Assembly: GCA_025677815.1 (NCBI GenBank)
Contig: JAIXMP010000027.1
Location: forward strand, 1 to 64,000
Origin: Phascolomyces articulosus
Lineage: Eukaryota > Mucoromycota > Mucoromycetes > Mucorales > Lichtheimiaceae
Length of the DNA stretch: 64,000 nucleotides
Direction of reading: 5' to 3'
A model generated the notes under the pieces. The model ran no database searches, was not told where the DNA came from, and saw only the letters and a list, made by a program, of their open reading frames with translations. Every line of letters starts with the position of its first letter. Position 1 is the stretch's first letter. This document shows positions 27,592-30,585 of this stretch, one piece after another. A program made the translations under genes and the position numbers.

Positions 27592-30585
27592 ATGGAAGAC
27601 TTTATCAATCACCAGATCAATCTCGTTGAAACAGAGAGGAAAGTCGATTTTGAGGAAACCTCGAAAATGTTGTCCATGTTTTCTCCCATACAACTTCAAA
27701 AACGTGGTATAGCTTTAGTCAATCTTAAAGTGTCAGGTATATATGTCATTTTATGCAAAAAATAAAAACGAGTAAAGAGTATAAAGGCATTAAATTTTCA
27801 TCTATATAGGCATGCGGACGGGTCTTGGAGGAAAAAGGTAATAATAACCCGTGTCATTGTTCTTGTCATTTGAATTAGGAGTTAACTGACACAATGCATT
27901 ATATAAAGTTTGATCGATCTCGAATTAGGGAATGCCACCAAAGGTGATTCAGGAACGTTTCCACCTCATAAAATAACCTCGGGAGATATTGTTGGATTGG
28001 ATGAATATAAAAAGGATAAACAAACCAAAAAAGTGATTGGATCAGAGTATTCAGGTGTTGTACTTCGTGCGTCTGATACAAAGATCACTGTAGCATTAGG
28101 TCATGATATAGAATTACCTCAAGAAGTACAGGAACGTTGTGTATGGTAAAGTTTGTTTTTGAGAATAAAATTTAGGAAACATGATATAAATACACTCTAT
28201 TTTCTCTGTTCTATTATATTGACAGCAAATTCTTTATTACAGTGTGAAGCTTGCGAACAATATAACTTATAATCGGTAAGTTTTCAATATATTTTATATA
28301 AGAAGGAAAAAAAAGTGAATGTTATAAGAAGTAACTGGATGATATTTTGGTTTCAAGAATGCTGAAAGCATTGGAACAGTTAAAATTCACAGCACCTGAT
28401 AATTTAATACAAGTATTACTCAATCAGCGTGCACCAAGTACTCCACAAGATATACCATCAATCGATTTCCTTGATGATACTTTGAATGACTCCCAAAAAA
28501 ATGCTGTTCGTTTTGCTTTGGAAGCAAATGAACTTGCACTTGTTCATGGTCCACCAGGTATATAAATATAAAGAATAGAGACGAATTCTTCTTTATTGTT
28601 ATTTTTATTTTTTTTTTTGCTAATGATATATACAATTTCATTTCATTTTATCTATAGGGGTAAAGATCTAGTTCAAAATAAGTTTAAAGCCTTTTGTTTT
28701 TTTACATAAGAAACTGATGATAAAAGGTGACATTATAAAATATATAGACTGGCAAGACATATACGCTTGTAGAAATTATTCGACAATTGGCTGTTGTTCA
28801 AAAGAAAAAAGTATTAGTATGTGGGCCATCTAATATTTCTGTCGGTAAGTTAAGATATATTTATGCGGGATGGGGTGGTTGAAAGAAGTAACTATATATA
28901 TAAAAAAACTAATAAACAACTTATTCATATTGTTCCTGGTATATTGGATATATGTACGATGTAGATAATTTGGTAGAACGTTTAGCAAAACATAAAATGA
29001 ATCTTGTTCGTGTTGGCCATCCTGCTAGAATTTTACCTACCGTTTTGGAACACTCCCTTGATATTATTACTCGAACATGTGATTCTGGAAAAATTGTCGC
29101 AGATGTACGTCGAGAAATGGACGATACATTGAACAAGATCAGTAAATGTAAACGACGTGCTGAACGACGTGAACTATATGGTCTATTAAAAGATCTTCGA
29201 AAGGATTATCGTGCAAGAGAACGAAAAGTATTGGATGAAGTGATGATGGGTGCCGAAGTGCTTATTTCTACATTAAACGGGTAAGAATAAATCAAAAAGG
29301 AGGGGGTCATCATCTTAGATTGGTTTTCATGATTTCATTGGTTGGGTGTTAATATATATATATATATATATATATATCTAGTTGTGGAAGCAAGAGTATG
29401 TTAAAGCATGAATTTGATGTAGTGATTATTGGTAAGTTGATAAACAAGAAAAAAAAATGTACTTGGCAAATAAGTACTTGAGAAAAAACGAATACAACCT
29501 GACAAAAAAGAGCCTACTAGATGAAGCAACACAGGCACTTGAAGCAGAATGTTGGATTGCTTTACTCAAAGGCAAAAAGGCAATTTTGGTAATTGTATAA
29601 AATAAGATTATTTATAAAAATATTGACGTTATTTTCTTCTGTACTGATAAGGACGCCATTTCTAAATGAATTATGCTAGGCCGGGGATCATTTACAATTA
29701 CCACCTACAGTCAAAACTCCTATTTCCTTGAATAAAAAGAAACCCAAAGGCATGTCTACCGATACAGATCTTAGCACCACCCTTTTCGACCGGCTTCTCA
29801 GCATGTACAAGAGTAAAAATATCAAACGGATGCTTGTAGTTCAATATCGTATGCATCAAAAAATCATGGAATTCAGCTCCAAGGAACTTTATGGCAACCA
29901 ATTAGTGGCGGATGCAAGTGTGGCTGAACATTTGTTGGCTGACATGCCAGATGTCACAGCTTCTGAAAACACTGAAGTACCTGTTGTCATGATGGATACC
30001 AGCGATACAGGTGTTGGTCATGAAATTGTGGATGATGCACGTGATAATGGAGAACAAAGTAGAGCCAATGAATTAGAAGTCGAATTGGCAGTCAATCATA
30101 TTCAACAACTTTTGGATGATGGTCTTTTACAAGAACATATTGGTGTCATTACACCTTATGCCTTCCAAGTCACTCATCTAATACGCGCAATTCGTGAACA
30201 ATGGCCTGCTATTGAGGTTGGTACTGTCGATGGATTTCAAGGGCGTGAAAAAGAAGCAATTATATTATCATTGGTCAGATCCAATGATGAAGGCGAGATT
30301 GGCTTTTTGGCTGAAAAGAGACGTTTAAATGGTAAGGGAATGGATGTATTTTTTATTATTATCATTGAAGATACAAAAGTTATGATATTCATCGTGACCC
30401 AAAAAAATGATGTTTTTTTAGTGGCAATGACACGTCCTAAGCGGCATTTATGTGTTATTTGTGATTCTGAGACTCTTTCTGGTATCAAGGCTAAAGCAAG
30501 TAGAATGGATGGTGGCTTTTTACGTCGCTGGATGGATTGGTTAAGTGAAGAATCTGATTTGAGATTCAGTGAACAATGTGTTTAA
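27592..30585 (+). CDS. HCS1: SF1B DNA/RNA helicase, HCS1/IGHMBP2 (SMUBP-2) family
   Basis: Twelve exons: 27592-27736, 27810-27837, 27909-28145, 28243-28275, 28358-28557, 28658-28659, 28748-28844, 28965-29280, 29382-29431, 29521-29588, 29680-30331 and 30422-30585; 663 aa, close to yeast Hcs1. This is an ATP-dependent 5'-3' helicase of the UPF1-like group. N-terminal family block: TGLGGKSLIDLELGN, PPHKITSGDIVGL. Motif Q/I: LNDSQKNAVRFAL and HGPPGTGKT. Ia: VCGPSNISVDNL. II: VVIIDEATQ. III: GDHLQLPPT. IV: QYRMHQKI. V: TVDGFQGREKEAIILS. VI: VAMTRPKRHLCV. All are present. The R3H and AN1 domains of the human protein are absent, as in the yeast protein. Gly of the P-loop needs a 2-nt exon (28658-28659). 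The last intron (30332-30421) is 90 nt with no stop, so retention would add 30 residues before motif VI. Confidence 0.93.
28658..28659 (+). other. inferred 2-nt microexon (GG) inside the helicase P-loop codon
   Basis: The upstream exon ends CCA CCA G before a GT donor at 28558. The next exon begins ACT GGC AAG at 28748. Direct joining breaks the frame and soon hits a stop. Between them TATCTATAG|GG|GTAAAG gives a perfect acceptor and donor separated by only GG; including it restores GGG and GPPGTGKT. The flanking introns are 100 and 88 nt, normal here, each with a branch-like site (GCTAATG, CTGATG). The rival reading is one 188-nt intron with a non-canonical AT-AG border starting at 28560. 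Confidence 0.65.

Follow-up and report, generated by a model that had tools for sequence, protein, structure and literature searches.

The window, a stretch of 64,000 nucleotides from the genome of Phascolomyces articulosus (Mucorales, Lichtheimiaceae; 47.4 Mb in 110 contigs), carries on its plus strand a gene of 12 exons at 27592-30585, whose translation gives 663 residues with zero internal stops and agrees in every residue with P0001, the protein deposited for P. articulosus. It contains the SMUBP-2/HCS1 1B domain (PF21138, 83.4 bits) and the AAA_11/AAA_12 helicase domains (PF13086, 229.2 bits; PF13087, 195.6 bits), each above a cut-off of 27, and this content places it among the SMUBP-2/HCS1 helicases; the closest solved structure is 4b3f, of SMUBP-2 (E 8.3e-150). 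It shares 86% identity with the Zychaea orthologue over its full length, and a search of the genome gave no second copy of similar identity, the next matches being pieces of 44% and 33% identity. In type it is an ordinary SMUBP-2/HCS1 helicase gene. Exon 1 (27592..27736) opens with the start codon at 27592 and an open frame, and is followed by exon 2 (28 nt; 27810..27837), exon 3 (27909..28145) and exon 4 (33 nt; 28243..28275). Downstream of the ATP-binding loop lie exon 8 (28965..29280), exon 9 (29382..29431), exon 10 (29521..29588), which encodes DEATQALE of the Walker B region, exon 11 (29680..30331) and exon 12 (30422..30585), which holds the TAA stop codon; all of these exons are given by translation and by identity to P0001. 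The residues of the small exon 4 are absent, with RCQI joined directly to M, from six of the 59 best deposited protein rows (P0011, P0027, P0035, P0045, P0047 and P0048), and this exon too is therefore easily overlooked. The Mucor velutinosus orthologue P0014 is deposited as 'Amino acid transporter', a name that does not fit its sequence.

The centre of the gene encodes the Walker A motif HGPPGTGKT, and it is here that the exon structure becomes unusual. Exon 5 (28358..28557) ends with CAT GGT CCA CCA G, in phase 1, and exon 7 (28748..28844) begins with ACTGGCAAGACA, read as ACT GGC AAG ACA (TGKT), so that CCACCAG joined directly to ACTGGCAAGACA is two bases short of GPPGTGKT. Every GT or GC donor was combined with every AG acceptor in 28520-28790, with introns of at least 40 nt, and GPPGTGKT was restored by none of 95 single-intron combinations and by one of 611 two-intron combinations; three of the 95 kept TGKT in frame but lost residues before it. 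The sole restoring combination removes intron 5 (28558..28657; GTATAT...TCTATAG) and intron 6 (28660..28747; GTAAAG...ATATAG, phase 0) and leaves between them a two-base exon 6, GG at 28658..28659, which would supply codon positions 2 and 3 of Gly215, a glycine that is present in P0001. The original prediction had placed a GG exon at this position as the only GT-AG solution, and a re-reading of the sequence confirms both the exon and the bases around it, as the enumeration confirms its uniqueness among GT/GC-AG solutions.

Several features of the two introns are consistent with their being spliced in this way. Their lengths of 100 and 88 nt compare with 71-120 nt (mean 90) for the nine other introns of the gene, whereas a single GT-AG intron across the gap would measure 190 nt, about twice the length of the others. 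The donor types are reused within the gene, GTATAT in intron 1 and GTAAAG in intron 3, and YTRAY branch-like motifs lie 34 nt before the end of intron 5 (CTAAT) and 30 nt before the end of intron 6 (CTGAT), as they do within 8-60 nt of the acceptor in six of the nine other introns; the normal sizes and branch-like sites foreseen for these introns are thus borne out. The splice sites beside GG had been described as a GTAAAG donor and a perfect ATAG acceptor. By a score matrix built from nine introns only, in which left-one-out acceptor scores fall below zero in five of the nine, the donor ranks first of seven GTs in the gap and the acceptor fourth of ten AGs, which makes 'perfect' an overstatement. 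When the 190-nt gap was shuffled with dinucleotide composition preserved, 132 of 5000 shuffles contained an AG-GN-GT arrangement with both introns of at least 60 nt, and in five of 5000 the sites of such an arrangement also equalled the real ones in score by the nine-intron matrix; among 12,654 overlapping 190-nt pieces of the window on both strands, 483 held any AG-GN-GT and none scored as well. The two bases thus share these features with ultra-short exons of the APC11 and CYP621A type: an AG upstream, a GT downstream, introns of normal length on either side, and a need for them in both the frame and a conserved motif. An introner origin for introns 5 and 6 was rejected, each matching only itself in the genome with no second copy found in a search that skips simple repeats and very common words, and a search for the joined junction pattern, at up to three mismatches, turned up no spliced (processed) copy of the gene.

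As had been anticipated, skipping GG ruins the frame: the direct join of 28557 to 28748, which would compete with inclusion and create the junction CCACCAGACTGGC, gives a protein of 242 residues, and retention of intron 5 or of intron 6 gives 216 or 218 residues. Given that the alternative products examined all end at or just after the P-loop, it is conceivable that GG is included under regulation and so turns an active helicase on or off, as the original prediction proposed. However, this is quite improbable for two reasons: first, truncation upon skipping holds for any frame-keeping exon. Second, orthologues with a simple phase-0 intron have no such possibility. The end of the frame after residue 242 in the absence of GG could also be taken to mean that the gene is degenerating into a pseudogene or that a truncated protein is its sole product, but this is scarcely credible given that the remaining exons join across GT-AG introns without a stop, that identity to the Zychaea protein extends over the full length and that the genome search found no other copy of comparable identity.

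P0001 agrees with the GG exon, yet a protein does not reveal the codon used at Gly215. Removal of a single 188-nt AT-AG intron (28560-28747), perhaps by the minor spliceosome, would join CCACCAGGT|ACTGGC, giving the junction CCACCAGGTACTGGC and the same 663-residue protein, and hence the same as that deposited. The existence of a minor spliceosome in P. articulosus is suggested by a match to U6atac snRNA (L035; C25:40178-40320, minus strand) of 52.7 bits against a cut-off of 33 and a match to U4atac (L036; C41:366173-366296, plus strand) of 50.4 bits, just below a cut-off of 53, and the species has probably kept it. Introns of the U12 type have the donor RTATCCTT and the branch site TTCCTTRAY. 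The AT-AG donor ATATAAAT, however, differs from this consensus at three of eight positions, each of them within the central CCT, and within 45 nt of the intron end every TTCCTTRAY-like site has at least three mismatches. A U12-type intron was also rejected more generally, the three donors having three, four and four mismatches of eight and the branch site at least three of nine. A single AT-AG intron is thus highly unlikely at this locus, and the comparison with relatives bears on it further.

The original prediction had called for a comparison of Mucoromycota orthologues, and this comparison, run on proteins and read-through ORFs only, favours the two-base exon. The read-through ORFs are collection proteins in which the reading continues past the end of exon 5 into the intron behind it, the best 120 of 1118 being listed. 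After HGPP, 97 of the 120 listed read G-V, as a phase-0 intron GGN|GT would give, while five read straight into GTGKT with no intron and 18 have another reading. When 46 ORF fragments were compared with named full-length proteins, the ORFs that came closest to Mucor, Rhizopus, Absidia, Cunninghamella, Lichtheimia and Syncephalastrum had the G-V reading. In contrast, K, N, L, T or W follows the G in the Circinella-like P0144 and P0149, the Fennellomyces-like P0139 and the Umbelopsis-like P0150-P0154 and P0156 (P0144 is 98.5% identical to C. umbellata and P0139 is 83% identical to Fennellomyces), which means that these ORFs lack the phase-0 GT donor. A G|GT donor two bases upstream, like the one in the window and with GGT as the presumed Gly codon, would fit all of them. 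P0142, P0143, P0148 and P0155, whose nearest named relatives are 65-74% identical, look similar, and P0188, P0201, P0212, P0214 and P0231 likewise have no V after G. On the exon-7 side, six read-through proteins were found among 58 candidates: in P0241, P0242, P0244 and P0245 TGKT is preceded by Q, which is what a CAG acceptor would produce, in P0243 it is preceded by K, and P0246 lacks an intron at this place. A search for the DNA of fungal relatives with exon 11 as query returned 26 genome-contig loci, with titles all bacterial or archaeal, and no viral contigs.

These ORFs also bear on two of the alternatives. It is possible to suppose that the window contains an assembly or sequencing error and that the genome in truth reads CCACCAGGTGTATAT, its intron being a usual phase-0 one, given that the loss of one GT from GTGT would produce exactly the bases seen and that GGN|GT suits 97 of the 120 ORFs in the list. 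However, P0139, P0144 and P0149 (source ena), Circinella- or Fennellomyces-like and from other contigs, are also without the phase-0 GT, and GG with its two splice sites would in that case have to be there by accident, as happened in five of 5000 shuffles. The single AT-AG intron in turn is excluded in the Circinella-, Fennellomyces- and Umbelopsis-like ORFs, as a codon for K, N, L, T or W after GGN cannot begin with AT, whereas G|GT is possible in all of them. Since both the ORFs and the deposited proteins of relatives deviate at this junction, an error in the assembly is most improbable, and the AT-AG intron is made unlikely by the same observation.

The deposited proteins of several relatives deviate at this junction. 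HGPPGTGKT is found in 45 of the 59 best rows (P0001-P0059) and absent from 14, two of which, P0057 and P0059, are fragments that start at or after the motif. The five Umbelopsis rows are each broken differently at the junction: P0051 has an insertion of VRRLSVGMN, P0053 has lost two residues, P0054 (Umbelopsis nana) has lost VHGPPG, like the in-frame single-intron combinations that drop residues before TGKT, P0055 skips the exon and P0056 is shifted in frame (HGPP-D-RKDVHV). A frame shift is also seen in Jimgerdemannia P0058 (HGPP-D-WQDIHAG), and back-translation suggests that the residues of P0056 and P0058 fit CCACCAG joined directly to AC(A/T)GG, exactly two bases short. The insertion of P0051 has the form GN-GTN-(A/C)GN..., as if a two-base exon and its donor had been read as exon; the read-through ORF P0151, 97% identical to P0051, continues differently from exon 5, and the inserted stretch thus probably lies apart from exon 5. 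Both Apophysomyces rows (P0005 and P0046) deviate from HGPPGTGKT, and Circinella umbellata and Fennellomyces (P0003 and P0019) read GPPETGKT, which may reflect either a real shifted acceptor in place of the GG exon or misannotation. Glycine changes in this motif of the related helicase UPF1 abolish ATPase activity, and the E may for this reason be an annotation artefact. Zychaea, of the same group as Phascolomyces, is deposited with an intact motif. Models can also break for reasons other than a donor shift, since no such shift is known for two further broken rows, P0038 of Gilbertella and P0048, one of two from Parasitella.

The two data sets can be set against each other in the 24 rows that have a read-through ORF of at least 90% identity, the other 35 rows, including P0001, having none. 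All 19 rows with the phase-0 donor have HGPPGTGKT and all five without it lack HGPPGTGKT (Fisher P 2e-5), but these rows are not independent, as a single Rhizopus ORF, P0122, is the match for 13 of the 19; when each best-matching ORF is counted once, the comparison is seven against four and the Fisher test gives 1 in 330. By genus, a missing phase-0 donor and deviating models coincide in Circinella, Fennellomyces and Umbelopsis, and broken models only are seen in Apophysomyces and Jimgerdemannia. A tree of 36 proteins places Circinella as the sister of Phascolomyces (100/99), in a group that also holds Zychaea and Fennellomyces (100/99). On this tree, 'shifted donor or broken model', a label given to 11 rows, needs four changes, of which at least three are forced by starred branches; the broken Gilbertella row is unlabelled, only the intact one of the two Parasitella rows is in the tree, the root is the midpoint and the Jimgerdemannia branch is long.

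Taken together, the frame, the uniqueness of the solution, the deposited protein and the relatives give good support to the original proposal that a two-base exon completes the Walker A glycine, and we infer, with a probability of roughly 0.88, that the helicase mRNA includes GG at 28658-28659, most likely constitutively; the relatives with deviating junctions may share the same exon. Given the G-V reading of 97 of the 120 listed ORFs and the exceptions in Circinella, Fennellomyces and Umbelopsis, the 88-nt intron 6 would occupy the common fungal phase-0 site, GGN|intron|ACN, and the 100-nt phase-1 intron 5 would be additional, lying two bases before it at CCACCAG|intron|GG. It is implausible on steric grounds that a two-base exon would be recognized from its two sides at one time. 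As two bases are too few for splicing factors on both sides at once, the introns would most likely be removed one after the other: with intron 5 first, the product would be CCACCAGGG|GTAAAG, an ordinary phase-0 intron like those of relatives, and with intron 6 first, the end of intron 5 would stand directly before GGACTGGC. Either order would yield CCACCAG-GG-ACTGGC, with the junction string CCACCAGGGACTGGC. Recursive splicing had been offered as an alternative that gives the same mRNA; the identity of the product holds, but rather than a separate mechanism it appears to be the likely route by which such an exon is included.

With intron 6 at the shared site and intron 5 an addition at CAG|G, the simplest path to this arrangement would be for a new intron to be gained next to one already present, a step at which the frame is never broken, as opposed to the loss of bases followed by rescue. 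The history may have been a single ancient gain and subsequent losses, or the site may have gained an intron several times. It is tentatively suggested, as a reading with perhaps one chance in three, that the two-base exon is ancestral to Mucoromycotina and predates the split of Umbelopsis, Endogonales (Jimgerdemannia) and Mucorales, that Umbelopsis, Apophysomyces and the Phascolomyces-Circinella-Fennellomyces group have kept it, and that elsewhere exact loss of the upstream intron has restored a simple phase-0 intron. Were this so, a deeply conserved two-base exon in the ATP-binding loop of a helicase would have been systematically misannotated. The failure of gene models from several related fungi at one junction points to a shared tiny exon of a kind that annotation software tends to miss, and this would, if true, explain why the Umbelopsis, Apophysomyces, Jimgerdemannia, Circinella and Fennellomyces models deviate at the same motif; since a tiny exon would account for a shared deviation, a hunt for conserved motifs whose exons cannot be joined could bring others to light. 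Fungi with one and with two introns at one codon furthermore provide a natural test of how the spliceosome handles an exon that is too short to be recognized as such. If transcripts confirm it, the two-base case joins the few ultra-short exons reported in fungi and indicates that such an exon can arise merely by intron gain two bases from an existing intron.

Ultra-short exons have already been published from plants and Fusarium, and the interest of the present case lies in its possible conservation across Mucoromycotina; no two-base exon from Mucoromycota was found among the matches listed from titles and abstracts of the open literature. Exons of 2-5 bases are cited for Arabidopsis, Drosophila and humans in the introduction of the Fusarium report (PMC12940212). 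In plants, one-nucleotide exons are described in APC11 of Arabidopsis (PMC4674806) and in plant VPS55 (PMC8831610), where RNA-seq and RT-PCR were used, together with minigenes for APC11 (PMC4674806); these reports describe the exons as conserved in orthologues and, for APC11, as absent where flanking introns have been lost (PMC4674806, PMC8831610). The helicase exon resembles them, as they are described there, in being ultra-short and missed by annotation, but it is fungal and of two bases. With the stwintrons described in Ascomycota (PMC9024468, PMC8469720, PMC6616335) it shares two adjacent U2-type introns and, most likely, their successive removal. However, in a stwintron one intron interrupts the splice signal of the other with zero exonic bases between, whereas the helicase gene keeps two, and a stwintron was rejected here as no GT/GC-AG combination without GG keeps GPPGTGKT. 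Recursive splicing, as presented in PMC6224609, is similar in that the upstream join of a short exon leaves a usable donor, CCACCAGGG|GTAAAG, but here the donor lies wholly inside intron 6 and needs no rebuilding, and the two bases would stay in the mRNA. A close parallel is the one-nucleotide exon of Fusarium CYP621A, which has SRA-read support (PMC12940212): in both fungal genes a tiny exon, flanked by AG and GT and needed for the frame, contributes to the codon of a glycine within a conserved motif and was spotted because two exons could not join. The helicase exon differs in its two bases, its place in Mucorales and in being known here from sequence, and, whereas the authors of the CYP621A report propose the loss of a base rescued by a cryptic exon (PMC12940212), the comparison of helicases points to an extra intron two bases from the common one.
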